Shown piece after piece: positions 3,001 through 64,000 of a stretch of DNA of 64,000 bases; position 1 is the stretch's first letter, and each line of letters begins with the position of its first letter. The notes beneath the pieces are model-generated. The model was not told where the DNA came from. It saw nothing but the letters and a program-made list of their open reading frames with translations, and did not search any database. The stretch is from Serendipita indica DSM 11827 (lineage: Eukaryota; Basidiomycota; Agaricomycetes; Sebacinales; Serendipitaceae), in contig CAJVGD010000012.1 in assembly GCA_910890315.1 (NCBI GenBank), positions 1,178,001 through 1,242,000 on the forward strand, in the 5' to 3' direction. The position numbers and the translations under genes were made by a program.

Positions 3001-3442
3001 ACGCGGCAATAATCGTCGCGAACGCTGTAACAGGCACAGGCACGACTCGGGTGAGCCTATTCAGGTGCTTCCGTGGGTCCGAGCTCTTAGTGGAAGAGGT
3101 TTGTGTGACCGGAGGGTCTGAGGACGCCGTAGGTACCATAGGATCAGCCTGTACATGATTACACACTGTTGCAGAGAGACTACGCTCGATAAATTGTGCG
3201 CTCATTGTCGATATGAACGCTTTCAATTGAGCACAACGTTCTTGAAGCGACTTGATAGCCAAAGTGTCCATTGTGGGCATGGGCGTTGGAGGGTGGTTGG
3301 CAACCGACGAGAAGGTCACAGAATCATCTGAAGACAATTCGGACGGGTTGACGAAGTGGGCTTCAGTACCATTAGGAGGGTATTCAGGGTACTCAGCCAT
3401 AACGTCAGACGTGGCATATTCCATGTCAGAGAGAGACATTGG
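1..3442 (+). mobile_element. Broken Ty3/Gypsy LTR retrotransposon (fossil), 3' half plus gag pieces
   Basis: The plus strand reads through the end of an RNase H domain (about 1-180), an acidic linker, an HHCC-type zinc-binding segment (about 960-1090), an integrase core with recognisable acidic motifs (about 1300-1770) and a chromodomain-like C-terminal part (about 2210-2370). A TATA-like stretch lies at about 2449. After it comes a gag start in the plus direction (from 2549) and a second gag start in the minus direction (from 3439). The element enters from the left window edge, so its 5' part is not seen, and I could not define LTR ends. It is broken, with a few interruptions in the visible part. 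Long integrase and gag stretches remain open, so it is not very old. Family assignment rests on domain order and motifs. Confidence 0.9.
2545..3442. repeat. Large inverted repeat made of two facing gag-start copies
   Basis: The sequence from about 2545 to 2940 recurs in reverse complement from about 3442 to 3050, leaving a centre of roughly 110 bp. By eye the two arms of about 390 bp differ at only around a dozen positions. Each arm begins at its outer end with the same gag start. The inner ends diverge. The arrangement looks like insertion or rearrangement of one retroelement copy against another in opposite orientation. Confidence 0.9.
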
Positions 3443-3450
3443 TGGAACAT

Positions 3451-6584: not shown

Positions 6585-6662
6585 GGTTTGCTCCGGTCAT
6601 AGCCGGTCTCAACTCCACCTCGCATCAAAAGTCGTAATGGCATTCCAGTGGCGATAATACAA

Positions 6663-8616
6663 CTATTCCCAATCTAATCCTTCGCGTCGCCTGAACAAGA
6701 CTTTGGCACTCAAGTTGGGCAGACTCGACCCCATTATGGACAAGTTGGGCGGTCGCTTCCCTTTGGCAGAGTCGGGCAGTTTAATGTCGTACTGGAGAAG
6801 AATATACACGACCAGATGCTTAACCAGCATCGCCGCGTACCATCTCCCAGGGCTGATACACACCATCAGCTTTCCATAACACATAATATCGTCAAGGGGA
6901 CATACCACGCATGTTTACCCAACCCCCACGCCAAAAAGTCCTCTGCAGGCGTGACCATGGCATACTTTTTCGAATCCTTGCCCAACCCTTCGGCATTCGT
7001 CCGCTCAAGGAACCTCCACGGCTTAAACTCTTTCGCATCTTCATACACATTAGGGTCCATGTGAATTGGATTCGCCACTGCGGCGACTAGTTCGCCCTTT
7101 GGAATCTTGACACCATTTGAAAACGTGTAATCTTGGACCGCAAATCGGTTCATCGTAGCTGCATTCAATCATCGTCAAGAGAGAGCTAATCAAGGCAAGG
7201 AGACGCACCATTGGAGAACCCAGAGTACCGCTGTGTTTCGCGGAGGTAACTATCCAACTTGCGCAACTCGCCCAAGGACGCAAATGAGATCGGACCGTCG
7301 CCATGCACTTGTCGAATTTCCTCCCGCAAGACTTCTGTGTACTCTGGATATGCGACCAAGTAGTACAGCACGTGAACAAATGTCTATCGCCAGTAAGATT
7401 CTCCAGGCCGAATGATGCCAGGGATACATACCATGGACGTTGTTCCCTGTGCCACTTGCTCTAGCAACAGATATGTCCCGACAATCGTTCGTGGATCTGG
7501 TTCCTCCTCTGTCACTTGTGACATAATGAGAGTCAGAACATCGTTCTAGATCCTTGAGTAACTGAACAAGAACAAACGAAGTAAGACGTACAGGCCTCTC
7601 GTCTTCCCTCATTGCACGTCGCTGTTCAAGAACAGGGTTGAGGAGGGCGATACAGTCCTCGAGGACATGGCTGAATCGCTTGATATACTCGTTGGCATCC
7701 CTTTTCATCACATTTCAGTCGTTACGAGGCCAAGGCTCTCGAACTTGCTCACGAGCGTCGTTGTTCGGGAAACATCCGCAACAGAACTGCCCGCCAGGAC
7801 ATGTCGGCGCCACCCTTTTGGATTGCCGTCATCCATTTCTGGTCTCTACACAGTGGGAGTCCGATAAAAGCGCGTGTATTGAGCTGAGTGGTGATCTCTG
7901 AAAACGCCTTGAAGGCCTTGACGCTTATCCATCCTGTTTTATTTATCAGCACATTTCCAAATGAAGAGATGTTCTATGTCATGCACGTACCATCTTTATC
8001 TTGCTTTCCATGTTTCTCAAAATGCGTGGCGAATGCGGCCCGAGTCTCGTCCGCGATTTCAGGGTAAAAGGCCGGTAATTGACGAGTGAGTGCACGAATG
8101 ACGGGGAGGTGAATTGCGTCGTGGGAGATGCCAGTGCCGACGAGGAGTTCGAGTTGCATAAACTATTGGGTGTCAGTACGCCGAGAACGAAGAAGAGACA
8201 AGGCGCACTTCGTTGAGCATTGCTTGAAAACTGAGGTGACTTTCTGGGGCACGGGCGAGTTCTTTAATGTATTCCCCCGAGACGATAGTGGGCCACTGTC
8301 CGAAAAAGGGCATCTTGAACATTCCGTTCTTGTGCTGTAGTTTTGTGGATTATCAGAAAAATTGATCATAAAGTAATGTGTTTATGGGTAAAAGACGTAC
8401 TTGTTCGTATCCTTTCTGCATTATTGAGTCGGCCCAGATGAATCCGCGGATTTGGCTGAGGATCGACATTCCAAATGCGTCAGAGACGATGGGTTCCACG
8501 TCTATTCTGTGCGTTTGCTCCTCTTCGGCCCCTTCGGCTGCTTGCGGCGAGGCCGAGGTGTACCATTTGTAGAGCAGAGCCGGCGGGGTGAGGACGGCGA
8601 GTGCCTCGAAGAGCAT
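6663..8616 (-). CDS. Cytochrome P450, copy 1
   Basis: Nine exons (8616-8401, 8334-8209, 8162-7991, 7933-7753, 7700-7592, 7545-7432, 7383-7209, 7158-6906, 6852-6663) give 511 residues. A hydrophobic N-terminal anchor (LFEALAVLTPPALLYKWY) points to the ER membrane. The I-helix oxygen-binding motif reads AQGTTS, the K-helix ExxR is ETQR, the PERF-like segment is FKPWRFLE, and the heme loop is FLAWGLGKHACPGR. The heme cysteine codon is split by the last intron. The fungal subfamily looks like the basidiomycete group resembling ent-kaurene oxidases, but I cannot name a CYP number. Substrate unknown. It is one of three close paralogs in this block and shows no damage. A GATA-type motif lies about 100 bp upstream. 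Confidence 0.96.
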
Positions 8617-8712
8617 ACTTGATTATAAGGATTCTCCCAGAGATGATTCTCTTGTATCTGGGGGATAGAAGAGAATGTGGGCGTTGTGGCGGCGGACGAG
8701 TTGCTGCGACTA

Positions 8713-8723
8713 CTTATCTAAGC
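8713..8723 (-). promoter_or_regulatory. GATA-type motif upstream of P450 copy 1
   Basis: On the coding strand the sequence is GCTTAGATAAG, containing AGATAAG, about 97-107 bp before the ATG. The same 11 bases occur at nearly the same distance before P450 copies 2 and 3. It could be a GATA-factor site or a degenerate TATA element. Confidence 0.5.
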
Positions 8724-9335
8724 TGCCAGAGCTCCGGCATCCATACGTGTTCGACACGTATGACGCCGTCCGCATGGCAAAGCGTCGGAGATTGACACCA
8801 CTTGGCACGCGTGATCATGAATTGACGCAGACGAAATCGAAATGGCCAGTAGCTGGTACCCTCTTTAATACGATACGGTGGGCGGGGGGTATGGTACCAC
8901 TCCATTATAGTCGATAAGCAGCCTATGTTGCCTTGAATGATATGCGAAAATGTCATAGGTACAAATAATCCAGGATCACTTGCGTGATAGATATGTTATC
9001 TGGATGGTCGTACAATGGTCCTTGGTCCAGTAGAGCCTCGGTGGAGATACTCAGTTTTCTTTTCAATTGTAACAACAGATAAATCATTTCGTCCCGGTGG
9101 AATTCAAGCTGCGAACACACTGGAGGTGGCAAGGACTAAGGGAATGACGGTAAAGAAACGCATGATGGCCTTCAAAGGACCTGAATAGGATATATAATAA
9201 AGAGGAAGGGGGAAATAGTCTGAAATTTCTCAGAGTCTTTCATCTAGGGCTCTAAAAGCCCTCCATAGTTTTTAATCACTGGGGCGTGTGTTGCAGTAAG
9301 CTCAGCACGGGCTTGAGAGTTCGCACACCGATGCG
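8724..9335. other. Spacer, start of it shared with the P450 copy 2 upstream region
   Basis: Up to about 8830 the sequence resembles the region upstream of P450 copy 2 (12960-13060), marking the edge of the duplicated unit. The rest shows no supported gene. Confidence 0.5.
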
Positions 9336-9780: not shown

Positions 9781-10857
9781 CTCGAAAATGGGATAGTGTG
9801 TGAAATCAGGTGAAGGGTAATATCTCCTCGAGAGAAGGAAATTAGAATGTGAGATGCTAACTAGACAACGTTGAATTTGAAGTCTGGATGAGGTTCAGAG
9901 GTCGAAAGTCACAAGCGAGACCCGCCGTGACTTGATACAGTGCGCAAACCTTCTCAAGGTAAGTAATATAGTTCAGGCCACTATGTAGATAACCACACCG
10001 GAGATTATTTTCGGCAAGAAGCGAGTGATCCGATGTGGACGAAGAGATCGAGATGAGTTACAGTCTCGACATAGTCGAATGACTATTGTCCAAGAGTGTG
10101 AATCAACTGAAATATAATCATGATATATCATCAGTTGTCGAACATTGAGAGGCGCATGACGAGAGGGGATGTGAAGTGCGATTATAGAACCTCGTCCACC
10201 CGCAATAGACGAAGAGGATGATCGACTAAGAGTGAAGATGCGTCGAATCAGCATTAAAATAGATCAATAAGCTCGCTAGAAATTAAATATTTCCCACAAG
10301 CAGCGCATGGCTTGCAAGTCGATATCGTGGTGGCAACGAATTAGATACACAGTGGAAGGTGCTGTTGAGGGCGTCGGAACAAGTGACCCGAAGGTTTTCA
10401 GAAGTATTATGATTTGGTGCGATGATATGTACAGCGTCAGTGCTACGGGTGGGGCTTGCGAAGAGTCGGGGCAGGAGCTCGATATCACGGATTGGGAGTC
10501 GTCAAGCTCTACTCCTTTCAGCGACAATCATTCTCGAGGTGCCATGTAACGGACGAGGCAGCAACTGTAGAGGCAAAGATTAGATAGGAACGAACAGAGC
10601 GACCAGACAGCGACTCCTTTAGAATGGTGCGCTCTGTTACGACGGTGCTGACGAGACCCGTTTCCTATCTGCATCCGTTTGATTGTGTATTACTTAATGT
10701 CTAGGTACATAACACTTCACGGTAAGGGGGTAACAAAAGTCTCATTCCGGTTGACGTTTGAGCTGTCAGCGGCTGGCTACCTGAGTAGAGCATAGCGAGT
10801 GGCACCAAGTTTGTGTCAACAAAGCTCTTCCTTCACTTTCGGTTCAGGTCGGGGACT
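9781..10857. other. Spacer without a supported gene
   Basis: Only short open frames on both strands, none with domain content or a consistent exon pattern. Confidence 0.5.
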
Positions 10858-10904
10858 TCACCTCGCATCAAAATCGTACTGGTATTCAAGTGGTGATAAT
10901 ACAA

Positions 10905-12858
10905 CTATTCCCAATCTAATCCCTCGCGTCGTTTGAACAAGACTTTGGCACTCAAGTTGGGCAGACTCGACCCCATTACGTGCAAGTTGGCCGGTCGCTT
11001 CCCTTTGGCAGAGTCGGGCAGTTTAATGTCGTACTGGAGAAGAATATACACCACCAGGTGCTTCACCACCATCGCCGCATACCATCTCCCGGGGCTAATA
11101 CACGCCATCAGCTTCCCATAACAAAAAGAGTCGTCAAAGGGACATACCACGCATGTTTGCCCAAACCCCACGCCAAAAAGTCCTCTGCAGGCGTGACCAG
11201 GGCATACTTTTTCGAATCCTTGCCCAACCCCTCGGCACCCGTCCGCTCAAGGAACCTCCACGGTTTAAACTCTTTTGCATCTTCGTAGATGTCAGGGTCC
11301 ATGTGAATCGGATTCGCCACCGCGGCCACCAGCTTGCCCTTTGGAATTTTGACGCCATTCGAGAATGTGTACTCTTGGACCGCAAACCGGTTCATCGTAG
11401 CTACATTCATTCCTCGTCAAGAGAAGGGGAATCACGGCAAGGAGACGCACCACTAGAGAAACCAGAGCATCGTATTGCTTCGCGGAGGTAACTATCCAAC
11501 TTGCGCAACTCGCCCAAGGACGCAAACGAGATCGGACCGTCCCCGTGTACTTGTCGAATTTCTTCACGCAAGACTTCTGTGTACTCTGGATATGCGACCA
11601 AGAAGTACAGCACGTGAACGAATGTCTATCGCGAGGAAAATTATGCAGGCCTGATAATGCGGCGGATACGTACCATGTGCGTTGTTCCCTGTGCCACTCG
11701 CTCTAGAAATAGATATGTCCCGACAATCGTTCGTGGATCTGGCTCTTCCTCTGTCACTTGTGACATGATGAGAGTCAGAACATCGTTCTAGATCCTTAAG
11801 TGACCGAACAAGAACAAGTGAGGCAAGACGTACAGGCCTCTCGTCTTCCCTCATTGCACGTCGCTGTTCAAGAACAGGATTGAGGAGCGCAATACAGTCC
11901 TCGAGGACATGACTGTAGCGCTTCATATACTCGTTGGCATCTCTTCCCATCATATTTCAGTCGTTATGAAGACAAGGGCTTCGAAGTTACTCACGAGCGT
12001 CGGTGTTCGGGAAACATGCGCAACAGAACTGCCCGCCAGGACATGTCGGCGCCGCCCTTTTGGATGGACGTCATCCATTTCTGGTCTCTACACAATGGGA
12101 GACCGATAAAAGCGCGTGCATTGAGCTGGGTGGTAATCTCTGAAAACGCCTTGAAGGCCTTGACGCTTATCCATCCTGTTTCATTTATGAGTACGTTTCC
12201 ACATGAAGAGATGTTTTTATGTAATGGATCTACCATCTTTCTCTTTTTTTCCATGTTTCTCAAACTGCGTGGCGAGAGCGGCCCGAGTCTCGTCCGCGAT
12301 TTCAGGGTGAAAGGCCGATAATCGCCGAGTGAGAGCACGAATGACGGAGAGGTAAATCGCGTCGTGGGAGATACCAGTGCCAACGAGGAGCTCGAGTTGC
12401 ATAAACTACCGAGTATCAGTAGGTTGAGAACGAGAAGAGACAAGGCGCACTTCGTTGAGCATTGCTTGAAAACTGAGGTGACTTTCTGGAGCATGTGCGA
12501 GCTCTTTAATGTATTCCCCAGAGACGATAGTGGGCCACTGTCCGAAAAAAGGTATCTTGAACATTCCGTTCTTGTGCTGTGGTTTCGTTGGTTATCAGAT
12601 GACTATCCACAAGAGAACGTGCTGATGTGCAAAGAGACGTACCTGTTCATATCCTTTCTGTATGATTGAGTGGGCCCAGATGGCTCCGCGGATTTGGCTG
12701 AGGATCGACATTCCAAATGCGTCAGAGACGATGGGTTCCACGTCGACTCTGTGCGTTTGTTCATCATGATTCCCTCCGGTTGCTTGCCGTGAGGCCGAGG
12801 TGTACCATTTGTAAAGCAGAACCGGCGGGGTGAGGACGGCAAGCGCCTCGAAGAGCAT
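10905..12858 (-). CDS. Cytochrome P450, copy 2
   Basis: Nine exons (12858-12643, 12576-12451, 12405-12234, 12175-11995, 11942-11834, 11787-11674, 11625-11451, 11400-11148, 11094-10905) give 511 residues. Every exon has exactly the same length as in copy 1, so there has been no coding indel since the duplication. The I-helix reads AQGTTH, ExxR is EAIR, and the heme loop FLAWGLGKHACPGR is intact with its cysteine codon split by the last intron. It should be an ER-anchored monooxygenase like copy 1, substrate unknown. Its upstream region faces the F-box gene at 13244 across 385 bp, and a GATA-type motif lies about 100 bp before the ATG. Confidence 0.96.
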
Positions 12859-12957
12859 ACTTGGTTATACGGATTCTCCTACGGGTAATGCTCTTGTACT
12901 TGGGGGATGGAAGAGAATGTTGGCGTTGTGGTGGCGGGCAAGTTGCTGCGACTAGTA

Positions 12958-12968
12958 CTTATCTAAGC
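12958..12968 (-). promoter_or_regulatory. GATA-type motif upstream of P450 copy 2
   Basis: The same 11-base coding-strand sequence GCTTAGATAAG as before copies 1 and 3, here 100-110 bp before the ATG, in the divergent region shared with the F-box gene. Confidence 0.5.
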
Positions 12969-13243
12969 CATCAGAGTGCGAGACGTACGACCCCGACCGG
13001 ATGGCAAAGCGTCGGAGAGTGAGACTGAATATGTCCACTTGGCACGTGTAATCACAGCTCAGATGATTATAATATAAAAAAGGGGCAAACAAATATAGAG
13101 GAAATGATTCATTAGGACTTAAATCCGAACAATAGACCTCCAAACCGAGGTGCTCATTGGACTCTGCCTTGTCCTCGTAGCGCTGAGCTTCTACCGCTGT
13201 TCGATATCTCGACTCTATACCTTGGCCCCTCATCTTTGGAAAG

Positions 13244-19101: not shown

Positions 19102-19253
19102 TATCCTCGCCGTTTTGGCTCACTCCTCAATATACGATGGGATCGATTCAAAATGCGGCACGGCAATGGCGCGAGACTTTTCTTAGAGTCAAGTTGAGGT
19201 TTTTTTTCGAGTGGTGATATGCTACACATGTACCGAAACGGGAGGTCCTTGAA

Positions 19254-21192
19254 TTAGTCCCAATCTATCCCCTGACGCCGCTTGAACAGCACCGAGGCAC
19301 GCGTGTTTGGTAATATGGTTCCCACCATTCTAAGGTCAGCCGGTCTCTTTCCTTTTGCCGAGTCTGGTAGCTTGATATCGTACTGGAGAAGAATGTACAC
19401 TACGAGATGCTTGACCAGCATCGATGCGTACCATCGTCCTGGGCTATAGACGCCATTAGGCAGAGTTTAGCAGTGGATTGGTAAGAGACTTACCACGCAT
19501 GTTTACCCAGTCCCCACGCGAGGAAGGTCTCCGATGGTGTGACCGCTGCATACTTCTTCGAGTCCTTTCCCAGACCCTCGGCATTTGTCTGGTCATAGGA
19601 CCGCCAAGGCTTGAATTCCTTCGCATCTTGGTACACTTCCGGGTCATGGTGGACGGAATTCCCAACCGCGGTGACGAATTCGCCTTTGTGGATAGTGACT
19701 CCGTTGGAAAAGGTAAAATCTTGAAGCGCGAGGCGGTTCATCGAAACTATAAGACCACGGTCAGTATTTGCGAGGGGGAGAGACAAAGACGTACAGTCGG
19801 AGAACCCAGACAACCGTTGTGTCTCGCGTAAGAAGCTATCGAGCTTTCGCAATTCTCCCAACGAAGTGAACGAGATTGTACTATCCCCATTCACTTCCTG
19901 AATCTCTTCCCGCAGGACATCTGCGTACTCTGGATACGCAACGAGGTAGTACAGCGCATGCACAAAGGTCTACTGTCCTCAATATCTGCTATTTTGGTCA
20001 ATGAGAGGGGACATACGATCGATGTCGTCGCCTGCGCAACTTGGTCGAGTACCAAGTACGTCCCCACAATCGTCCGTGGATCTGGCTCTTCATCTGTCAC
20101 TCGCGACATTATTAGCGTCAGTAGATCATTCTACGAATCAGTTAGTACGAGCCTTGCTATGAGTAAGAATGACGAACCGGTCTCTCCTCCTCTCTCATAG
20201 CACGTCGTTGTTCAAGGACGGATGTCAACAGCTCGATACAGTCTTCTAGAACGTGGCTGAACCGCTTGACATATTCGTTGACGCCTCTGTTGGTAGATCG
20301 ATGAGCCACAATATCTTACGCGGATCGGAATACTCACGCTCGTCGGTCTTCAGGAAACATTCGGAGAAAAAGAGCGCGCCACGTTAGGTTTGCACCACCC
20401 TTGTCAATCGCCTTTTCCCATTTCTCCTCTCTACATAGCGGTAGTCCGATGAACGTGCGCGCGTTGAGCTGTTTTATAATAGCCATAAATGTGTCAAATG
20501 CTTTGACGCTGGTCCATCCTACGGCATCATCAGTCGTACTCTGAAGAAACATTGCTGGGAAGCCAATCTACGCACCATCTTTTTGGAGTTTGCCGTGTTT
20601 CTCAAAGTATGTAGTAAATGCATATTGCGTTTCGTCTACGACCTCCGGATAAAAGGTTGGTAACTGGCGTGTAAGGGCGCGTATGACGGGTAGATGTATC
20701 ATGTCCTGGGATACGCTCTTGCCGACGAGGATTTCGAGTTGCATAAACTATTCGAATTGTTCAAAGATGTAGATGAGTATTTAGAATAAAGGACGGACGT
20801 CATTGAGTGTCGCCTGGAAGTTGAGATGGTCATCCGGAGCGCGTGCAAGCTCCCTGATATATTCTCCAGAGACGACGGTGGGCCACTGTCCAAGGAATGG
20901 CATCCTGAACATTCCATTCTTGTGCTGTGGTCATAGATATCAGAATGGACATGAACAAACGGAGCTGAGAGGGCGCTCGCACTTGATCGTATCCTTTTTG
21001 CATGATCGAGTCATTCCAAATAAGCCCGCGAATCTGGTTCAGGATAGATATTCCGAACGCATCAGAGACTACTGATTCCACTTTGACCTCGTGTTCTTCA
21101 GCCTCGCCTGATGAGGCATTAGTTGACGCTGAAGTGTACCAGCTGTATAGTAGTGCGGGTGGAATGACGAGAACGAGCGCTTCGAACAGCAT
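19254..21192 (-). CDS. Cytochrome P450, copy 3
   Basis: Nine exons (21192-20983, 20924-20799, 20747-20576, 20518-20338, 20286-20178, 20130-20017, 19969-19795, 19746-19494, 19443-19254) give 509 residues. Only the first exon differs in length from copies 1 and 2 (two codons shorter). Key motifs are present: AQATTS in the I-helix, ETQR as ExxR, FKPWRSYD, and FLAWGLGKHACPGR with the cysteine codon split by the last intron. An in-frame ATG four codons upstream (21204) is possible, but alignment with the paralogs favours 21192. It is clearly more diverged than copies 1 and 2 are from each other. ER-anchored monooxygenase, substrate unknown. Confidence 0.95.
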
Positions 21193-48351: not shown

Positions 48352-48752
48352 GTCGCCACACAAAAGTCAGGGCCAAAGTGGACTCTGGTCTCTTCCACAT
48401 TCCGATTCAGATGGTTGAACCAGTAGATTCCCTGGAATCTGAACAAGTTTTTTATCTGAGAGGTTACTTGGTTTCTAGCTGCTCACAGATCCTTTGGAAG
48501 GTAATCAAAAACGAGCTCACCCAACAGATCCAGTGCCGAAAATCGTGAGAAATGATTCGTAAATATGAAACATTAAACGAATCTTCTTCGGTAGTCCGTT
48601 GAATGGCAAAACTCGCTCAACGGCAAAATTTGCTCACTCGAGTTGGCAATCCGCGGACGGCAGGTCAAACATGTCTTAGCACCAAAAAGCCCCGAGGTAT
48701 AAAGGAGACCACTGTTGCTTCATCCTTGGTGATAAATCTGCTCCCTTCCAGC
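48352..48752. other. Divergent promoter region, MCM2 and SDR copy 1
   Basis: About 400 bp separate two divergent starts. A TATA box for the SDR gene lies at 48698; the MCM2 side shows none. Confidence 0.5.
48698..48703 (+). promoter_or_regulatory. TATA box of SDR copy 1
   Basis: TATAAA lies 55 bp before the ATG at 48753. A matching box occurs at the same spacing before SDR copy 2 (55855), and the flanking bases are similar. Confidence 0.65.
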
Positions 48753-50048
48753 ATGCCGCGTAGCATTCGATGGGACGGTGTCTGCAAGCTACTTGCAGAG
48801 TTTGCTCCTGGAACACCTCAGTGGAAAGTGGAGGATATTCCAGACCTCACAGGCAAAGTTGCTATCGTCACGGGCGGAAATGCAGGGATTGGATACGAGA
48901 TTGTCAAGGTACGTCCTCTACAAGTCGTCCCGAGGTGAAGATGACACCGCATAGGCATTATTAACCAAGCACGCCAAAGTCTATCTCACGTCTCGCTCAA
49001 CTACGAACGGAGAGGTTGCGGTCCGCAAGTTGCGCGATGAAGTGAAGGACGCAGACGTCCACGTGCTTGAGATTAACCTCGCTGACATGTCAAGCGTGAA
49101 GAGGGCGGCATCAGCTTTCCAAAGGTACTGTCTTCACGTAATCTTAGTGTCAACGTGCTGATCAGATACAGCAAAGAGACCCAGCTGCATCTCCTTATCA
49201 ACAACGCGTGCGTCTTCCTGGCCTTACTTTTTGGATCTCACTCTCTCCCAGTGGTGTAATGTCTCCACCAGTCGACCATGTGACCGCCCAAGGCTATGAC
49301 CTTCAGTTCGGAACCAACGTCTTGGGTCACTACTATTTCACTCACCTTCTCCTCCCAACTCTCAAATCCACCTCTTCTTCTATTTCCGCCACTGACCCTA
49401 TCGGTGTGCGGATCGTTGAGTTGGCTTCAGACGCACATCTCCTTAGTGCGTTCACCGGTGGAGAGGTAATCAAGCTTGAGACTCTCAAAGATGGGGACAC
49501 AAGAAGGGCCGTCGGAACTACGCAGTTGTATATGCAGAGCAAATCTGGGAATATCCTGGTTGCGGCTGCACGTGCAAGAAAGATGACGGAATTAGGTATC
49601 AACATCTTTACAGCAAGCGCCAATCCAGGTGAATCGGATACTCTGGGCTATATGGGGGATGTCTGACGGGCGATAGGGCGCATTGAGTCAAATCTTCAAC
49701 GCCATGCACCTGCGATGGGCCAGATACTCGTACGTATGCTTCATACCCTCTCAGAAGCCGGTTCTAATTATTTCATAGAGCAAGCCAATGCTGTACCCCA
49801 CAAAGATGGGCGCGTTGACTCCCTTGTATGTCGCTACGTCTCCCGAGGCGCTCAAACATAACGGAAAGGTACGGTGGTCTGACTCTCTCCTTGCATACCT
49901 GACTCTGCGCTAGTACTTTGCGCCGTGGGCAAGACGCAAGGAGCCACGTATCGATCACGAGAACAATATCGAAGTGGAGACAAACTCATTGGTTGGCTCG
50001 AGGAACAGACATCCTCGTTTGAGAGCAATAACGATATATCCTAACTAG
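48753..50048 (+). CDS. Short-chain dehydrogenase/reductase, copy 1, altered C-terminus
   Basis: Seven exons (48753-48908, 48955-49124, 49166-49207, 49252-49628, 49677-49729, 49779-49868, 49914-50048) give 340 residues. The Rossmann motif [11 protein letters not shown] (about 34-44), NNAG (codon split by an intron), a serine in VELASDAH and the catalytic YMQSKSGN are all present, as in retinol dehydrogenase/WW-oxidoreductase-like SDRs using NAD(P)H. Substrate unknown. Compared with copy 2, one base is missing near 49970, so the last two dozen residues are in a new frame; the older frame would end [11 protein letters not shown] and stop at 50044. The core enzyme is intact and may still work. 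Confidence 0.85.
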
Positions 50049-50440: not shown

Positions 50441-50878
50441 CAAATGGTAAGAACGCCGGACTTATAGGGATTCGCAAAACTATCCCTTATCGAATATATC
50501 TCTGATTTGATATCTTGTGCAACTCAAGGCAACCCCCGTCGGCCTCCGGCTGGCCTGTCAAGCACAGGTGGCGAGAGTCATATCAATTTCGCCGTCTACC
50601 TAAGATTTGGCGTCGTCTTCTTGCGCACTAGGCGTGTGGTAGTTAACGAGTCGAAGCGAATATTGGGCTGTACAAGGTCAACCTTGTGCGGCGTCACGAT
50701 CTGTCTAATACCTTACTTATGCAAAGAGGAGGTCGCACGTTGTTCCCTACCACCGGATATTGTGAATGGTGCTGGCAGACGGCTGGAGCCACCATGCCAG
50801 TCTCCATTCAACAGCCGTTTGACGCGAGGCTGCTCAGCAAAAGCCTGTTCTTGTTCCCAACCATCTTGATCACACAGG

Positions 50879-53800
50879 ATGTCTGGTCCTGGCTGGAGAT
50901 TGTGGGATCTTTTCCGCATTTCCAAACCTTCGTCACAAACGACCGACAAAGGGACAACCATCCTTGGCCCAGATATCAGCAATCTTTCAACGTCAAAAGC
51001 CAAGTCGAAGACGGATGAATTTGGCTTTCTCGAACTCGCGTCGGGGACGGATCCTATCGTTGAGTGAGTAACGGTTTGCTTACGCGCGAAATCTTGAGCC
51101 GACCACGTCAGCATTGTCGCCATCCATGGCTTGGATGGCCACAGAGAGAAGACATGGACGGCGGAGAGTGGCGTCTTGTGGCTTCGAGACCTCTTACCAG
51201 CTGACATACCCAACGCCCGAATCCTTGTGTATGGCTACGACGCTGATACTCGCAGTCGGGAGTGTGTCTCAACACAGACGATATATCAACATGCGGACAA
51301 GTTTGTCAAGTCCCTCTTACGGCAGCGTAGTGATATTCCACGTGTGAGTAGCGCGCTGGTCCGTCTCGAAATGTATCTCAAACTCCCGCAGAGACCAATC
51401 ATTTTCGTTGCGCACAGTTTGGGAGGCATAGTCCTTAAACAGGTATCCCCGTCCCAAGACCCAATTGCTTGATCTGATAGTCGCCTAGGCACTCGTCCTT
51501 TGTCACAACCAGAGCAGGGGTTCGACAAATCCACTGCGGAATATATTGGTGTCTACTCATGCCGTTCTTTTCTTCGGAACACCTCATTCAGGGGTGAAAG
51601 GCGTCGAGCTTTTGCGCACCATAAACCGGCTTTTGTCAATATACCTGAGGACAACAGATTCTATCCTCCAGCATCTCATGGAACACTCGGCAGCGCTGGA
51701 GAACATACAGAATCTATACGTTTCGGCGAGCGAGGAGATTGAAACTGTTCTATTTTACGAAGTGTATGAGACGCCAATCATTGGCGGTAAAAGGCAAATG
51801 GTGAGTAGAATGCCTACTGGTCCATTCGTGTCTGAAGTGTGTAGATTGTACCACGTCATTCGGCAACAGCTGGCGGAGATCGACATGCGACTGAAGAGGC
51901 ACTGGACGCTGACCACTGTGAAATGGTCAAGTTCACCAGCAGAAAGCAGACAAATTATTCGACCATTCTTTCATACATCAAGATGCATGTCGAAGGGGCT
52001 ATGACTGCAGTGACAAAAAAATGGGCAACAGAGGACGCTCATCGAGGTTTGTGGAGTCATAATGACATGCTCGCTTACTAATTATGATCAGCCGTAGATG
52101 ATCAGTCGTCGCATGAGGCCGTATTACTAAAACCTCGACTCGTCGTGTCGCGGAACTACGTCGATAGACCGGAAATTCAATCCCTCATCACGCAGAATCT
52201 GCTCCCAGATAGTCATACGCGTCATCAGCCGCGGTGCATATTGCACGGGATCGGTGGGGCGGGCAAAACTCAGCTGGCCATGAATTGGATTCGGGATCAC
52301 GAAAGCCGGTACGAATTGCTCAAGCTTTGAGGGCAAATTTCTAATCGTTGGCTAGGTTCACTCGGGTTATTATCATAGATGCTTCCAGTCAAACCCAGTT
52401 GGAAAAAGACTTGGAGACCTCGATCCGCGTATTAGGCCCAGCGTACAGCGAGATGACCTGGAATGATGCGGTTGCATACCTGGATGGAAAAGCAAAAGGC
52501 TGGTTGCTGTTCTTCGACAACGCCGACTCTCCAGATCTCGACCTTCGCCCATACCTCCCTGTTTCCACTCATGGAGCAGTTTTGATCACCACTCGAAATG
52601 GTGAATGCGCCAACTACGCTCCAGATGGCGCAGTTCTTGTCGGTGATCTGGAGGAGAACGAGGCGATCGAGCTCCTTCATAGAATGGCTAACGTCACACC
52701 TCAAGATGACGCCCAGTCGCTCAAGATTGTCAGAGAGTTGGGGATGCTAGCGCTCGCCGTCACTCAGGCAGGGGCATATATTCGCAAGACACGGCGCCTC
52801 GATGCGTACCTCGACACGTTTCGTAAACATCGAGATCGCCTTATGCGCCAGAAGCCAGACATCGGCAGCGAGTACACATACTCGACCTATACCGCGTTCG
52901 ACCTCTCCTTCAACTACCTCCCCGAAAAGACACAAGAATTCCTGAAGCTCTGTGCATTTCTTCATCCCTCACTCATTCCCATTACTCTCTTTGAAGAGTC
53001 AACAATGAACAGTTTCACGACATATACTGTCTTGGAAAGCTGTCCTCCCCCGGAGAGTGACAAGGAGTTCGCGTCCAAGCTCGAGGAGACTTTAGGCTCG
53101 ATGTGGGACGAAATCGAGTTCCAGGAACTTATTGATTCTGCCTCTCGCGCCTCGTTTATCGAGGTTTCGATCGATGGGTTATTCTATAGCATTCATTCCC
53201 TCTTCCAAGTGTATATCAGGGACCGCATGGGAGAAGGAAATGCCCAGCAGCATACAAACATAACCGCGCAACTCGTACTCGGTTCGATCCGGCCCCACGA
53301 GGGCAGTAATGCACGGCTTTGGCATCTGCTCCCCCATGCCAACGCCATACCTCGATCCGTGCAACTTGGAAATGCGGCGCACGCGTTGGCCTTTCACGAG
53401 CTGTACAAGGCTTTGGGTGACTGGGAGTCGTGTCGAGAGCTGCTAGAGTTTGCCCTCGGGCAGCTTCGACAGGATAAAGGTGAAAAGCACGAAGACACGA
53501 TATGGATCATGAGCTCGCTTTCTATCGCGTTAGATGGGTGCGGTGAATTCGACGAGATGGAAAAGTTGGAGCTCGCAGTGCTGAAACTCCGCCTGGAGAC
53601 GCTAGGAGAAGCGCATCCGGACACCATCATGGCAATGGCCAATTTAGCCACGACTTTGCGGCACAGAGGTCGGTTGAAGGAAGCGGAAGACATAGAACGA
53701 ATTGTACTAGCTCGACGCCTGGAGATTGGTGGAGAACGGCATCCAGAAACAATATTGGCCAGAAATAACCTCGCAACCACCTTGAGTGAGCTCGGCCAAT

Positions 53801-54646
53801 TGGACGACGCGGAAGAAATGTATAAAGATATACTCACTTGGCAGATCGAGACGTTAGGTCGACAGCATGCAGACACTATTATAACAATGAACAACCTTGC
53901 TGTTACATTGCAACGCCTCGGTCAGCTGGAGGAGGCGGAGGCAATGCAACGACAAGTGCTTGCCCTGCAGATCGATGCCCTTGGCGAAAGGCATCCCGAA
54001 ACTATCAATGCAAAGAGCAACCTCGCCTTGACAATCTGGGATCGTGATCGATTTGACGAGGCGGAAGAAATGCAACGGGAGATACTCGCCCTGCAGCTCG
54101 AGCTACGTGGAGAGGAACATCCAGATACGTTGGTAGCAGAAAGCAACCTTGCCATCACATTGTACAGCAGTGGTCAGATGGCCGAGGCAGAAAAGTTGCA
54201 ACGAAAGGTCCTCGCTCTGCGACTTGAGCTCCTGGGTCGAGAGCATCCAGACACGCTTGACGCCTCACAAAACTTATCCCTTACATTGTGTCACTCTGGT
54301 CAGCAGGAAGAAGGCATCAAGCTCCTACAAGAGACCACAGAACTGCGCATCGAGGTCCTGGGTGACGACCATCCTCGTACTATGGAAGCGAAAGAAGTTC
54401 TCCAACTCATGCAGCCTAAGCGACTTGGTGGCTCTCGTCGTCGCCTTCAATCTCAATCCGCCATTAGCTTACCTAATACAACAAGAAGCGTTGGAGCAAA
54501 CAAGGTATTCTTAAATTGTCGTATTGAAACCATCTGATCATTTGTAGCGCAAGCACGAGGATACGGAGACCATGCCAGACGTTCGGGAGCCTCGCACGAA
54601 GCGCACCAGCAAGCGAGTTGCTAACAATAGGAGGAAGGCAAAATAA
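50879..54646 (+). CDS. NLR-like protein 1: serine hydrolase, NB-ARC, TPR
   Basis: Eight exons (50879-51063, 51112-51343, 51392-51442, 51489-51800, 51845-52046, 52092-52308, 52356-54504, 54548-54646) give 1148 residues. An alpha/beta-hydrolase domain (about 62-300) has AIHGLDGHREKTW, the nucleophile elbow VAHSLGG (serine about 148) and VLFFGTPHSG. NB-ARC follows with P-loop GIGGAGKTQLA (about 380) and Walker B WLLFFDNAD (about 450). From about 760 come eight or so TPR units of 42 residues, with LGERHPETI-type spacers, fairly diverged from one another. A last exon adds a basic tail (RTKRTSKRVANNRRKAK). Fungal proteins of this plan are treated as NLR-type sensors; role here inferred. No interruption seen. 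Confidence 0.9.
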
Positions 54647-55570: not shown

Positions 55571-55854
55571 TTGCTATTTTCGGGGCAACAAGAGATTTTA
55601 CGTGACGTAGGCGGGTAATTAGCTTGTTGTTTTGTCTACGCGATGTTTGGCAGCAGCAGGATCCCGCCTCTGCGTTGGACGGCTCTTGTTATAGGGTATA
55701 ATTGGTTCTCTGTTACTTATTCAAGTTGAGACAGAAGTACATCAATTGGTGGCCAGGTTTGATGATTCGAATTGAGAAGTGCCTGGCCGTGTGATGCCGC
55801 TAGCTCGGGTTGACAGGACTTCAAGTATGCTTTAGCGCCAATAAACTCTCAGGG

Positions 55855-55861
55855 TATAAAA
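55855..55861 (+). promoter_or_regulatory. TATA box of SDR copy 2
   Basis: TATAAAA lies 53 bp before the ATG at 55908, matching the box before SDR copy 1 in sequence and spacing. Confidence 0.65.
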
Positions 55862-55907
55862 GGAGCTACTGTGCGTCCATCCCTGGTGGTCACTCCTCTT
55901 TTCCGAC

Positions 55908-57204
55908 ATGCCGCGTAGTGTTCGATGGGACGGTGTGTGCAAGTACCTCGCAGATTTTGCACCGGGAATTCCCAAGTGGACGCTTGAAGATATGCCAGAC
56001 CTTACAGGCAAAATTTCCATCGTCACGGGCGGAAATGCTGGGATTGGATACGAGATTGTCAAGGTACGTATTCTACAAATAGCACCGAAATGAAGATGAC
56101 ATTGTATAGGCTCTGGTAGCTAAACACGCCAAAGTCTACCTAACATCTCGCTCAATTAACTGCAAACGGTGAAGCTGCGGTCCGCAAGTTGCGCGATGAA
56201 GTGAAGGACGCAGACGTCCACGTGCTTGAGATTAACCTCGCTGACATGTCAAGCGTGCAAAGGGCGGCATCAGCTTTCCAAAGGTACTGTCTTCACGTAC
56301 TCTTAGTGCCAACGTGCTGATTAGATACAGCAACGAGGGCCAGCTGCATATCCTCATCAACAACGCGTGCGTTCACACCATTCCTTCAACGTGTCTGACT
56401 ATTTCTCAGTGGAGTAATGTCTCCACCAGTCGACCAGGTAACCGCGCAAGGCTACGACCTTCAATTCGGAACCAACGTCTTGGGTCACTACTATTTCACG
56501 CATCTTCTCCTCCCAACCCTCAAATCCACCTCCTCTTCTCTTTCTGCCGCTGACCCCATCGGCGTGCGGGTCGTTGAATTGGCTTCGGACGCTCATTTCC
56601 TCAGTGCGTTCACCGGTGGAGAGGTAATAAAGCTTGAGACTCTCAAAGACGGGGACGCCAGGAGAGCCGTCGGAACCACGCAATTGTATATGCAGAGCAA
56701 GTCTGGAAATATCCTAGTCGCAGCTGCACGTGCTAGGAGGATGACGGAGTTAGGTATCAACATCTTTACAGCAAGCGTCAATCCAGGTGACTCGGATAAC
56801 CTGGAGTATATATGGATGTCTGATGGGTGATAGGACGCATCGAGTCAAATCTTCAACGCCATGCACCTGCCATTGCCCAAATGCTAGTACGCACGCTTTA
56901 AACTCCTTTTAAACTGTTTCACATTGTCTCCATAGACCAAGCCAATGCTCCACCCCACAAAGATGGGCGCTTTGACTCCTTTATACGCAGCCACGTCCAC
57001 CGAGGCGCTCGAGTACAATGGAAAGGTACGATTTTCTGACGTGTCTCTTGCAAACCTGACTCGTAGCTAGTACTTTGGTCCGTGGGCAAGACCTAAGGGC
57101 CACGAATCGATCACGAGGGCAATGTCGAAGCGGAGGACAGTATCATTGCTTGGCTTGAAGAGCAGATATTGGAATTTGAGACTAGCAACGGCATATCTAC
57201 CTAG
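55908..57204 (+). pseudogene. Short-chain dehydrogenase/reductase, copy 2, disrupted
   Basis: Exon positions match copy 1 one for one (55908-56063, 56110-56283, 56325-56366, 56410-56786, 56834-56886, 56936-57025, 57071-57204). The second exon is 4 bp longer than in copy 1 (near 56155-56175), which shifts the frame and brings a stop soon after. In the last exon one base is missing relative to copy 1 (near 57099). [11 protein letters not shown] and YMQSKSGN are still readable, so the loss is recent. The end of the older frame reads WLEEQILEFETS. Unless the assembly is wrong at these points, no full-length enzyme is made. Confidence 0.8.
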
Positions 57205-58371
57205 CTATGCGAACAGCGTGAATGGCCAAGGCGATCATCTAGAATCTCTCGCTGTGCATATCCTCGAGATGTAATAGTATTTTCTCCGCTTCCTTCGCAA
57301 ACTCTCGAGTCTACGGGAGTTTCCTGGGCCTGCACTGCCAAAGGCGTACTGTCGTCGAACGGTCGGGGTCGAGATTCAAGGGTTTTGATCAGAAAAGACT
57401 ATTGGCATTCTAGATACCAAATCCAACTCAAAGACGCATCTGAACCGCTGCTGTTGTGGCCGTGGCAGGCTCAGACTCGGGTGGACGAGCAAGGGGTTCT
57501 TATGTCCAAGACGGGCTCGAGCTCTGAGGCGGAGTGTCAGATCAGTTCCAGAGTAAGAGTGCACTTACTTGCGACATACTGCATTTTCAAAACTCACTGT
57601 TGTGCCTTTTCGACTGCATCAGGCGAGCTACACGAGGGTTAGATCTAGCTATTGAGCGTAACAGGACGGCGTGCACCTTCAGCTCAAACAGACTTCGAGT
57701 AATTGATGTTCTTGGGACAACAAGAGATCTCTACATGTCGGCGGGTTCAAGCTTGTTGTTTTGTTTACGCGATGTTTGGCCAGCATTTAATTTTGTTAGC
57801 TGTTATTTCCTACTCTCAGTCTACACGCTGACCATTCTACTTATATGTGGCTAAGTAAGGCCTCACCCACGTTCAGTGAAGAACTTATCCAGCTTTCCTC
57901 TGACTGAATTCGGCTTGATGACACTCGTCGGCTGGCGCACAGGCCACTCTTCTCGAACGTCTTGTAGTTCGGGGCATAGGTCCACGAGATTTCCATGTAA
58001 TATCAGGAGAGATTGGCTGAATGTGGCCTGGACGATTGTGGATCTGATCGAAGACTAACCAGTATATGGACCCGTAGGTATCTCCACGTTTACATAAACA
58101 TTCAATAGATCTGTTTCGACCTGCATATATATGATCTAAGCACAGCTCCGACCGCTCTCATCTGCGTCTGTCGGTAGATAGGCGAAAGTAAAGACATCAA
58201 AGGCCTCGATAAAACAATTAAAATCTAGGTCTGGCCTTTCTATCGTCACTTTGTTGCAATGGTACCTGGAGAGACGTTAGTTTACCATGCATGCCAGTCT
58301 CGTGGGCCGTTTGACGCCAGGCCGTTCAGCAAATAATCTGTTCTTGTTCCCCACTGTCTCGACCAAGAAAA
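57205..58371. other. Spacer with a degenerate gene copy and the NLR2 upstream repeat
   Basis: 57376-57640 (minus) resembles part of the small gene at 54963-55570 but is shorter and degenerate. From about 57850 to the NLR2 start the sequence resembles 62821-63375 upstream of NLR3, so the tandem unit includes its 5' flank. No other gene is supported. Confidence 0.6.
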
Positions 58372-61300
58372 ATGTCAAGTCTTCGCTCACGGTTGAAAGG
58401 CATTATACGCAGCTCTAACCCGTCCTCGCAAACGATGAACGAGGAAGCGCGTATTACCCCTTCGAATCTGAACAAACCAACGACATCCAAGTTCAAATAC
58501 AAGGCGGATGATCTTGGTTTCCTCGAACTCGCGTCAGGAACTAATCCTATCGTCGAGTGAGTGAACGGATTGCTTGCGCGCTGAACCTCGAGCTCACCAT
58601 GTCAGCATTATCGCCATCCATGGCTTGGATGGCCATAGAGAGAGGACATGGACGGCGGGAAATGGCGTCTTATGGCTTCGAGATCTCCTCAGCATCGACA
58701 TACCCAACGCACGAATACTCGTGTATGGCTACGACGCCGACACTCGAAGCCGAGAGTGTGTCTCGACGCAGACAATATACCAACACGCCGACAAGTTTCT
58801 CAAATCCCTCTCGAGACAACGCATTGATCATCCACGAGTGAGTAAATGTCCACCCCTACTTCTCGTCGTCTCAACAACCGCAGAGACCAATCATTTTCAT
58901 TGCGCATAGCTTGGGAGGCATTGTGCTCAAACAGGTAATACGTCTCACTGCGCACGTACTTGCTCTGATAGTCAACCAAGGCACTCGGCCTTTGTCATAG
59001 CGAGAGTGTGGGCTCAAAAAATGACTTTCGGGACATCCTGGTGTCAACTCACGCTGTTCTCTTCTTCGGAACACCACACTACGGCGTCAACGGCGTTGAG
59101 CTTTTGCACACCATGAACAGGCTACTGTCGGTGTACTTGAAGACGACAAAGGTTATCGTCCAGAATCTCAAGAAGAACTCGCCAGCATTAGAAAACATCC
59201 AGAGGTCGTACACGTCGGCTAGCAAAGAGATTGAAAACGTTCTATTTTACGAAGTGTATCCAACCCCGATCATTGGTGGTAAAAGAAAAATGGTATGTGC
59301 GATGGATCTTGCTTCTTGGAGGCTGAAGTGCGTAGATTGTGCCGTATAACTCTGCCACCGTCGCTGGGGATTGTCAGGCAACTGAAGAAGGACTGGACGC
59401 TGACCATTGTGAAATGGTCAAGTTTCGCGACTCAGGCCACGTGAATTATGCAACTGTTCTTTCCTACCTCAAGCAGCACGTTGAAGGAGCCACCGCTGGG
59501 GTGACAAAGAAGTGGTGTACCGAGGACGCATATCGAGGTTCGTGGACCGCTGGTATTGCTTCAAACCAATAAATATCTCCAGATCTGGCGAATAGAGAAG
59601 ATCTATCGCCGAATGAGGTTGTCCTACCAAAGCCTCGTTTGACTGTGTCAAGACACTACATCGATAGGCCACGGATTCATTTCCTTATCACACGACATCT
59701 CCTCCCAAGTAGTCCTGTGCGACGACAACCCCGGTGTATCTTACACGGGATTGGAGGTGCCGGTAAAACTCAGCTCGCTACAAAGTGGATTCGTGACAAC
59801 GAAAACAGGTACGCAGTCTCCGATTATTTGGAGATCTCTCATTAGTAGCTAGATTCACTCGTGTGATTTTCGTCGACGCATCCAACCAGACTCGATTGGA
59901 GAAAGATTTGGAACTTTCGGTTCGAGTTTTAGGCCCAGAATACAGCGAGATGACCTGGAATGATGCGGTTGCATACCTGGATAAGACGGCAAAAGGCTGG
60001 TTGCTGTTCTTCGACAATGCCGATTCTCCAGATCTCGACCTTCGCCCATACCTCCCTGTTTCCACTCATGGAGCAGTTTTGATCACCACTCGAAATGGTG
60101 AATGCGTTGACTACGCTCCAGATGGCGCAGTTCTTGTCGGTGATCTGGAGGAGAACGAGGCGATCGAGCTCCTTCATAGAGTGGCTAACGTCACACCTCA
60201 AAATGACGCCGAGTCCGTCAAGATTGTCAGAGAGTTGGGGATGCTAGCGCTCGCCATCACTCAGGCAGGGGCATATATTCGCAAGACACGGCGCCTCGAT
60301 ACGTACCTCGACACGTTTCGTAAACATCGAGATCGCCTTATGCGCAAGAAGCCGGGTCTCGGCAGCGAATATACCTCGTCGACATACACTGCATTCGACC
60401 TGTCCTTCGACTGCCTTCCCACACAGGCACAAGAGCTCCTAAAACTCTGCGCGTTTCTTCATCACTCTGCCATTCCAATCTTTCTATTTGAAGAATCAAC
60501 AAAGAATGGTTTCACTACATACCCCGTTCTGAATGGCTGCCCCCCTCCGGAGAGTGACAAGGCCTTGATGTCAAACCTTGAAGAAATCCTGGGCTCTGCG
60601 TGGGACGCGCTTGAATTCCAGGAGATCGTTGAATCGGCGTATCGTGCGTCGTTCATCGACGTTTCGAATGACGGTTTAGTCTACGGCGTACACCCCCTCC
60701 TTCAGGTGTATATCAAGGACCGTCTCAACGCAGATGAGAACCGGTTCTACTCACAAATGACAGCAAAACTGCTCCTTGGAGCCATTCGGCCAGCCAAAGG
60801 TAGCAATGCGCATCTTTGGCCGTTGCTTCCCCATGCTGCCATTATACATTTGTCCATGAAATTGGAGCATGTGGCTTACGCGTTGGCATTTTACACACTT
60901 TACGAGTCCTTAGGTGATTGGAACGCGTGTCGAGAACTGCTGGCGGCTATTCTTTCCCAGCTTCGGCAGGACAATGGAGAAAGACATGGAAATTCCCTCT
61001 GGGTTATGTCCGCGCTTGCCATTGCATTAAACAGGTGCGGTCGGTTGGACGAGGCGGAGAAGATTAAACGAGAGGTGCTCGCCCTGGAGTTGGAGATCCT
61101 TGGCAGGCGCCATCCAGACACAATTTCGGCAATGGGTAACCTTGCGAGTACACTGTCTGACCGTGGTCAGTGGGTCGAGGCGGAAAGGATTCAACGAGAG
61201 GTGCTCGCCCTACGGTTGGAGATCCTTGGAGGACGCCATCCACACACAATTTGGGCAATGGGTAACCTTGCAAGCACACTGTCCGACCGCGGTCAGTACG

Positions 61301-62587
61301 TCGAGGCGGAAAAGATTAAGCGAGAGGTGCTCGCCCTACGGTTGGAGATCCTTGGGGGACGCCATCCACACACAATTTCCGCAATGAATAACCTTGCGAG
61401 TACACTGTCTGGCCGTGGTCAGTGGGTCGAGGCGGAAAGGATTCAACGAGAGGTGCTCGCCCTACGGTTGGAGATCCTTGGAGGACGCCATCCACACACA
61501 ATTTCGGCAATGAATAACCTTGCGAGTACACTGTCTGACCGTGGTCAGTGGGTCGAGGCGGAAAGGATTCAACGAGAGGTGCTCGCCCTACGGTTGGAGA
61601 TCCTTGGAGGACGCCATCCACACACAATTTGGGCAATGGGTAACCTTGCACACACGCTGGCTGACCGCGGTCAGTGGGTCGAGGCGGAAAAGATTAAGCG
61701 AGAGGTGCTCGCCCTACGGTTGGAGATCCTTGGGGGACGCCATCCACACACAATTTCCGCAATGAATAACCTTGCGAGTACACTGTATGACCGTGGTCAG
61801 TGGGTCGAGGCGGAAAGATTAACGAGAGGTGCTCGCCCTACGGTTGGAGATCCTTGGAGGACGCCATCCACACACAATTTCCGCAATGAATAACCTTGCG
61901 AGTACACTGTCTGACCGTGGTCAGTGGGTCGAGGCGGAAAGGATTCAACGAGAGGTGCTCGCCTTATGGTTGGAGATCCTTGGAGGACGCCATCCACACA
62001 CAATTTGGGCAATGGGTAACCTTGCAAGCACACTGTCCGACCGCGGTCAGTACGTCGAGGCGGAAAAGATGGGACGAGAGGTGCTCGCCCTACGGTTGGA
62101 GATCCTTGGACAACGCCATCCACATACCATCCGGGCAATGAAGGACGTCGCAAATATCTTACATGATTGTTGTCAATTTGAAGCAGCGGAAAATCTCCAA
62201 CGTGAGGCGCTCAATCTGCGGCTTGAGATCCTTGGAGGGCGGCATCCTGACACTATATCAGCTATGAGCAACCTCGCCGCTACTTCATACCGTCGTGGTC
62301 TACTGGAGGATGCCGAGAAACTGCAACGAAAGGCAGTTGCCCTCCGGCTCGAGATATTGGGCCGAGAGCATCCTCGCTCCCTTGATGCCTGCTATAACCT
62401 AGCTCTCATGTTATACGAGGGCAATCAGCTCGACGAGGCGACCAAGCTTCTACAGGAGACCATGGCACTACGCGTCGTGATGTTTGGTGCTGACCACACT
62501 CACACTCGCCGTCCACAACAACTTCTCAATGACCTCGTGTCTGGACAGCCTCCTGGTCTTCAAACTCATACATTTTTGCTTTCGTAA
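58372..62587 (+). CDS. NLR-like protein 2: serine hydrolase, NB-ARC, homogenised TPR array, one frame shift
   Basis: Exons 58372-58556, 58606-58837, 58884-58934, 58981-59292, 59336-59537, 59583-59808 and 59853-62587 mirror NLR1. The hydrolase elbow is IAHSLGG, followed by VLFFGTPHYG; the P-loop is GIGGAGKTQLA and Walker B WLLFFDNAD, then VHPLLQVYIKDR before the TPRs. From 61069 nine TPR units of 126 bp are almost identical, then three are diverged. Between the sixth and seventh units (about 61815-61823) two bases are missing relative to the other units, so the frame shifts and a stop follows at 61893; the array then resumes in the original frame to 62587. Either the gene is truncated after six near-identical TPRs or the assembly erred in the array. 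Confidence 0.82.
61069..62200 (+). repeat. Nine tandem 126-bp TPR-coding units
   Basis: The landmark GAGGTGCTC recurs at 61072, 61198, 61324, 61450, 61576, 61702, 61826, 61952 and 62078. The spacing is 126 bp throughout except for the 2-bp shortfall before 61826. Units differ mainly at a few codons. Each codes one 42-residue TPR. Confidence 0.95.
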
Positions 62588-63375: not shown

Positions 63376-64000
63376 ATGTCAAGTCCTCATTCGTGGTTTA
63401 AATGCATTCTTCGTATTTCCAGCGACCGAACAATAGTCACGTCGCGTTTAATCTCAAGATACGGCCACAGACGCTGGCCGGCACTGGGCCATCCAACCGG
63501 TCTTCCTCAGATTCAACGACGATCATTCGACGTCCGACTATTCAGTAAGAGACACATCATCTGTTCCGCACAGTTTTGAACAGAATAACGCCAGGTGCCT
63601 GCTCGCCTACCAAAGGCTTTCTACGCTTTTCCAAACCATCAACAGAAATAACCGATAAGGCAACCGATAAGGCAATTGCTACTCCCGACTTGGATGCTAG
63701 TAAACCGTCAAGCCTAGGAGACCAACCAAAGGGGGTTCAACTTGGTTTTCTGGAGCTTGCGTCAGGCAAGGATCCCATCGTCGAGTGAGTGATTCCAACG
63801 TCCTACGCATCAGTTCCAGAGCTCAATTTGTCAGCATTATCGCCATTCACGGGTTGGATGGCCACAGAGAGAAAACGTGGACGGCAGACAATGGCGTCTT
63901 GTGGCTTCGAGACCTCCTCTCCGTCGACATTCCCAACGCTCGGATCCTCGTGTATGGCTACGACGCCGACACTCGCAGTCGAGAGTGTGTCTCGACGCAG
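63376..64000 (+). CDS. NLR-like protein 3, partial at window end
   Basis: An ATG at 63376 aligns with the NLR2 start and its first 50 bp or so match. A second stretch (63576-63786) matches the rest of exon 1 of NLR1/NLR2 and ends LGFLELASGKDPIVE at the same GTGAGT donor; it has no ATG of its own. The next exon starts at 63836 with AIHGLDGHREKTW and runs off the window in the hydrolase domain. The two halves of exon 1 are not in one open frame, so either an extra intron is spliced or the start is damaged. The visible hydrolase part is intact. Confidence 0.65.

Follow-up and report, generated by a model that had tools for sequence, protein, structure and literature searches.

Near-identical TPR units in three-unit order in an NLR-type gene of Serendipita indica

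The closest described relative of the locus considered here is Pa_2_10340 of Podospora, a SesB-like/NB-ARC/TPR gene with near-identical TPR units (Dyrka et al., 2014; PMC4986451). The accessible part of that study reports that the unit number ranges from 2 to more than 15 between strains, that three positions evolve under positive selection and that the variable sites lie on the concave face of the repeats, and it gives 21.2% as the share of annotated TPR repeats in fungal NLRs that are highly conserved internally (PMC4986451). A homogenised TPR array that varies at contact positions in this class of NLR is already published for fungi. The available text of two further reports describes the binding of cargo peptides to the concave face of kinesin light chain TPRs (PMC6214655) and the clustering of NLR genes (PMC12258605). 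Here we consider NLR2, a gene of Serendipita indica located in a stretch of DNA of 64,000 nucleotides that was analysed as a whole (hereafter the window). In our main reading, to which we assign a probability of roughly 0.8, the repeat array of NLR2 serves as the sensor end, built of TPRs, in a SesB-like/NB-ARC/TPR NLR, homogenised by unequal exchange, variable at contacts, and forming a groove that depends on the order of its units.

The NLR2 gene and its paralogs

All features described below lie on the forward strand, and their positions are those of the window. In a hand-built model, the upstream reading of NLR2 (58372-61893) begins with an ATG at 58372 and ends with a stop at 61891-61893, giving a protein of 1082 aa. 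Its six putative introns (58557-58605, 58838-58883, 58935-58980, 59293-59335, 59538-59582 and 59809-59852) are of the GT-AG type and 43-49 nt long, and were placed by visual inspection, guided by where the reading stays open and by similarity to the paralog. A Pfam search with the first 808 residues matched DUF676 (PF05057; 24.4 bits, cut-off 20.3) at residues 135-203 of the spliced protein and NB-ARC (PF00931; 24.2 bits, cut-off 23.5) at residues 380-524. The first match corresponds to a putative SesB-like serine esterase core with an AHSLGG motif, at approximately 58884-59180; the second lies at approximately 59592-60214 and includes the P-loop GIGGAGKT at about 59752-59775. Both regions span an intron. 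Repeat units 1-6 matched TPR_12 (E = 1.7e-73) and TPR_10 (E = 4.9e-68) in Pfam. These predicted domains place NLR2 in the SesB-like esterase/NB-ARC/TPR class of fungal NLRs, the SesB-like part of this assignment being made through PF05057 and the AHSLGG motif.

NLR1 (50814-54254) and NLR2 (58306-61751) are tandem paralogs that are 72% identical. The stretches upstream of the two genes, at 48665-50048 and 55821-57204, are 82.5% identical, and the duplicated block was therefore larger than the gene. A third NLR paralog begins at about 63376 and is cut at the end of the window (64000); its compared part, 63729-64000, is 80.6% identical to 58501-58771 of NLR2. Both synonymous divergence and the DNA identity profile single out one near-identical stretch in the NB-ARC region, at 59965-60324 of NLR2 and 52468-52827 of NLR1. 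Synonymous divergence in the four 90-bp blocks of this stretch is 0.18, 0.04, 0.05 and 0.00, against 0.49-0.80 in the other nine of 13 consecutive blocks. Gene conversion or a double exchange leaves such a tract, which here measures about 270-360 bp. It shows that the genes of the cluster exchange sequence, and says nothing of a TPR array converted from another gene.

Elsewhere in the window, a near-perfect inverted palindrome of about 0.9 kb (2543-3446; 90.8% self-complementary) adjoins ORFs that match integrase and SH3 of the Tf2-1 type. The window also contains three stretches of about 2 kb that are related to one another (6612-8817, 10855-13054 and 19252-21192), with 87%, 68% and 67% identity in pairs.

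Repeat units, their order and the break in unit 6

Tandem Repeats Finder detected a 126-bp tandem repeat at 61039-62142 (8.8 copies, 89% matches), and a period of 378 bp outscored that of 126 bp (2.9 copies, 94% matches). With REVLALRLEILGGRHPHTI.AM.NLASTLSDRGQWVEAERIQ as the phase, unit starts fall at 61069, 61195, 61321, 61447, 61573, 61699, 61823 and 61949. Units 1-8 (61069-62074), of 42 aa each, have a mean aa identity of 88.7% (range 81-100) when unit 6 is entered over 40 aa, against a mean of 46.8% (range 38.1-61.9) among the six TPR units of NLR1. By our own pairwise count, and not by T-reks, this mean over eight units and more than 300 aa lies above the threshold of >85% identity over at least 100 aa used by Dyrka et al. 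(2014). The interior of the array is homogenised and its border units are diverged. Unit 0 (60943-61068), at the N-terminal border, differs from units 1-8 by 57-62 nt. At the C-terminal border (62075-62587), which holds units 9-11, a tail and the stop, the differences amount to 33-41 nt for unit 9 (62075-62200), 43-49 nt for unit 10 and 53-59 nt for unit 11.

The sequence-only reading from which this work started had described nine near-identical units of 126 bp in an NLR-type gene, beside well-diverged TPRs in NLR1. The homogenised array in an NLR-type gene, with its NB-ARC and TPR_10/TPR_12 matches, and the divergence of the NLR1 repeats are both confirmed. The near-identical units number eight, unit 9 belonging with the diverged ones, and the tandem array is real but includes one unit, the sixth, of 124 bp, with a frame break that had been overlooked.

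Relatives of the array were sought among contigs. A search of genome contigs with the array protein confirmed none, and an eight-row alignment of two-unit pieces gave 2 loci out of 208 pattern stretches in genome contigs (34-36% identical); viral contigs gave 1 locus out of 24 pattern stretches (33% identical). These matches are prokaryotic or viral TPR genes, and were discarded as too distant to serve as relatives of the array.

Units 1-5 (61069-61698) are of types A, B, C, A and B, unit 6 (61699-61822) is of type C, and units 7-8 (61823-62074) are of types A and B, which gives units 1-8 the three-unit order A B C A B C A B. The mean nucleotide differences at lags 1-7 are 11.4, 12.0, 6.4, 12.0, 14.0, 8.0 and 19.0, and an equally low mean at lag 3 occurs in 544 of the 40320 unit orders (P = 0.013). 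The order is the pattern that duplications of 378 bp would leave. The W units are units 2, 5 and 8, each of which carries G plus a terminal K, and this linkage of W, G and KIK is due largely to shared descent of the B units through three-unit duplications. The co-occurrence of W and G with a K end after them, as first noticed from the letters, holds for these three units but in one direction only, as unit 1 pairs S with G. Unit 1 is recombinant in this respect, and so is unit 5, a B type whose position 17 is W, against Y in units 2 and 8. A literature search, thin on subscription journals, found no paper that describes such an ordering by threes for a TPR NLR of fungi.

The reading of the array is interrupted in unit 6 by a net loss of two bases near 61809-61822. 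Relative to the usual unit end, this loss consists of two single-base losses a few bases apart and not of one contiguous deletion. No single intact reading frame runs across the NLR2 repeats: the upstream ORF (59863-61893) stops at 61893, and TPR coding resumes in another frame, in an ORF at 61829-62587 that encodes units 7-8 and the C-terminal units with their tail. As written, NLR2 is therefore unable to make the full receptor.

The break arose either as an error of the consensus or assembly or through a recent lesion. We see about even chances that the break, and perhaps the unit count too, reflects such an error in a near-identical repeat. The coding sense past the break is undamaged, as 61829-62584 matches TPR_10 (PF13374) with E = 6.9e-55, and the lost bases can be assigned precisely to columns in which the unit types differ, where reads merged from different units could produce losses. 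Since 28 of the 126 columns vary, the chance value of this coincidence is about 0.05, which is weak, and the ambiguous gap placement is therefore only a hint of read merging. The accessible part of one study offers precedents for both readings. It describes repeats that were lost, newly created or made chimeric when short reads were assembled, and a deletion of a single base, probably false, in an assembly from R9 nanopore data, but also a genuine disrupted allele with two stop codons backed by reads (PMC12222747).

Disrupted alleles of highly repeated NLRs do occur in Podospora according to the same text (PMC12222747), and a real, recent loss-of-function allele of NLR2 is a serious candidate at slightly less than even odds. 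Such an allele, with its stop at 61893 after 1082 aa, would encode a truncated receptor with about six TPR units, in which the full groove is no longer possible. Against this account, the reading remains open for 252 codons past the break, with no second stop or shift; the lesion, if real, would therefore be very young.

An unrecognised intron over units 6-7 might also restore the frame in the transcript, which we consider very improbable. The reading would stay open if any of eight GT-AG stretches, 40-109 nt long, were removed, and two of them, 61778-61826 (49 nt) and 61804-61849 (46 nt), are sized like the introns of this gene. However, the candidate donors GTACAC and GTCGAG appear weaker than those of four of the six assigned introns, the candidate stretches are closely copied in other units where splicing is unneeded, and their removal would delete most of one TPR. 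None of the eight was retained as convincing. Separately, two splice-like motifs, noted at 61778-61797, are present in unit 6 only: a GTATGA donor-like site, derived from an S-to-Y change at position 12 and used by none of the frame-restoring candidates, and a TTAAC branch-like motif, derived from the base losses.

If the break is real, the array could conceivably act as a repairable switch, in which the broken unit keeps the receptor silent in part of the nuclei or strains, and the break is removed or restored by unequal exchange in steps of 378 bp. We regard this as a long shot; if true, the specificity of the receptor and its on/off state would both be set by the unit blocks present. A real break would in any event make the locus a test case for repeat exchange switching fungal receptors off and on. 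The locus also warns against any functional reading of arrays of this kind before long reads have been used to check how many units they contain and even what their frame is.

Variable residues in the predicted solenoid

The best sequence match of the repeats is to kinesin light chain TPRs (7ai4_A, E = 5.8e-23), and the 42-residue repeats of Podospora, 4y6w and 4y6c, are matched with E = 2.9e-20 and 6.5e-20. Marold and others, 2015, is reportedly the paper behind the structure of these Podospora repeats. In an AlphaFold2 single-sequence model of units 1-6 (pLDDT 76.6, pTM 0.43), helices alternate in a TPR-like manner, the global shape being uncertain. Foldseek with this model ranked kinesin light chain TPRs first (KLC1/KLC2; 6swu, 7ai4; E = 4.8e-11) and 4y6c eighteenth, with about 26% identity in the fold alignment. 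Sequence search and model fold search alike show the units as a predicted alpha-solenoid of the kinesin light chain kind.

Among units 1-8, 12 of the 42 residues vary in amino acid (-11, -5, -1, 2, 5, 9, 12, 13, 17, 22, 23 and 24 in canonical TPR numbering, which was aligned by hand and not from coordinates, the kinesin light chain match being gapless over these repeats). According to the part of the TPR literature at hand, the most variable positions of TPRs are 2, 5, 9, 12, 13, 33 and 34, and the ligand contacts are 2, 5, 6, 9, 12 and 13 (PMC1261162). The sequence-only reading had proposed to map the variable positions on a TPR model; set on this hand-aligned numbering, they speak for it, as five of the six ligand contacts vary (P = 0.0047 for units 1-8 and 0.0016 for units 2-8; P = 0.018 within the 23 codons of the variable half). 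The changes that it had listed, S/W, N/G, W/Y and RIQ/KIK/KMG, were all found. Changes beyond its list are S/H, S/A/Y and D/G at TPR positions 9, 12 and 13, and E/R/W, G/R, H/D and I/M at residues 7, 13, 17 and 41 of the unit. A hand count in units 2-8 gave seven private amino-acid changes, beside two private synonymous changes. Four of the seven are at contacts, with P = 0.010 when all 42 codons form the background and P = 0.081 when the background is the variable half with its 23 codons.

Pairwise dN/dS, from Nei-Gojobori counts pooled over unit pairs of one allele with few linked unit types, is 0.48 overall, 0.44 at contacts and 0.39 for the rest in units 1-8, and 0.49, 0.43 and 0.36, respectively, in units 2-8. 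Contacts and other positions have a pN of 0.211 and 0.044, and a pS of 0.397 and 0.109. Synonymous changes are dense in the same half of the unit (positions 8, 9, 10, 12 and 14), and the clustering of variation therefore stems partly from the linked haplotype of the B units. Given the ratios overall and at contacts, selection on a recognition surface, with contacts preferentially variable in amino acid, is suggested and not more. Positive selection as a proven property was rejected, dN/dS being below 1 with no excess of amino-acid change; with a single allele and few linked unit types, the counts fit relaxed constraint and diversifying selection alike. As for the joint action of exchange and recognition selection that had been claimed, the exchange is visible and the variation falls at contacts; the selection part is what the ratios fail to carry.

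A neutral recent expansion would leave a similar picture. A few founder units would have been amplified, and the contacts would vary because the TPR fold constrains them least, with no selection on recognition. The ratios at contacts and elsewhere, the synonymous changes in the same stretch and the general variability of the contact positions in TPRs at large (PMC1261162) agree with this account. It sits less well with the share of private changes found at contacts, an argument that softens under the stricter test, with two independent private changes at contact position 12, and with the diversifying selection reported from strain data in the same receptor class, as far as the accessible text goes (PMC4986451). 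We hold neutral expansion to be quite possible, somewhat short of probable.

Proposed mechanism and comparison with known systems

In our main reading, that of an exchange-homogenised sensor, unequal exchange would have multiplied units 1-8 and kept them alike, in part by acting on three units (378 bp) at a time, and border units 0 and 9-11 would have escaped homogenisation and diverged. A change in the number or order of units could then change the binding groove, because the differences between units lie mostly where TPRs touch their ligands. By analogy with the family, a bound ligand would free the NB-ARC switch and turn on the N-terminal esterase, whose activity would lead to cell death or to a non-self response. 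The locus adds to the NLRs in which the near identity of TPR units can be seen side by side with duplication in blocks and with exchange between neighbouring genes.

Known systems resemble NLR2 to different extents. The TPR domain of kinesin light chain is the best match to the NLR2 units in both sequence and fold; unlike NLR2, kinesin light chain is a motor adaptor with diverged repeats, without NB-ARC or esterase. The Podospora repeats 4y6c and 4y6w share with NLR2 TPR-like units of 42 residues in near-identical tandem copies, whereas NLR2 is a different protein, about 26% identical to 4y6c in the fold alignment. As described in the accessible parts of two studies (PMC4986451; PMC12222747), HET-D/HET-E (HNWD) of Podospora resemble NLR2 in the concerted evolution of near-identical 42-residue NLR repeats. 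The HET-D/E-type comparison drawn from the letters is nevertheless displaced, since those genes carry WD repeats on a NACHT NLR and NLR2 combines TPRs with NB-ARC. Membership of NLR2 in the HET-D/E group was rejected: when three pieces of NLR2 were scanned against Pfam at E 0.001, neither HET nor WD40 was matched, and NACHT gave no match in NLR2, where PF00931 was matched instead.

Pa_2_10340, a SesB-like/NB-ARC/TPR gene, is the closer relative. On the available account of that gene (PMC4986451), the two share the three-part architecture, the near-identical TPR units, the exchange between repeats and the location of variable positions on the concave helical face, which for NLR2 follows from the hand-aligned TPR numbering. 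Pa_2_10340 is documented with strain data; NLR2 differs in being represented by one allele, in which dN/dS stays below 1, the units are ordered by threes and the frame is broken. The last two of these features, together with the conversion tract that links it to its neighbour, are particular to the NLR2 locus.
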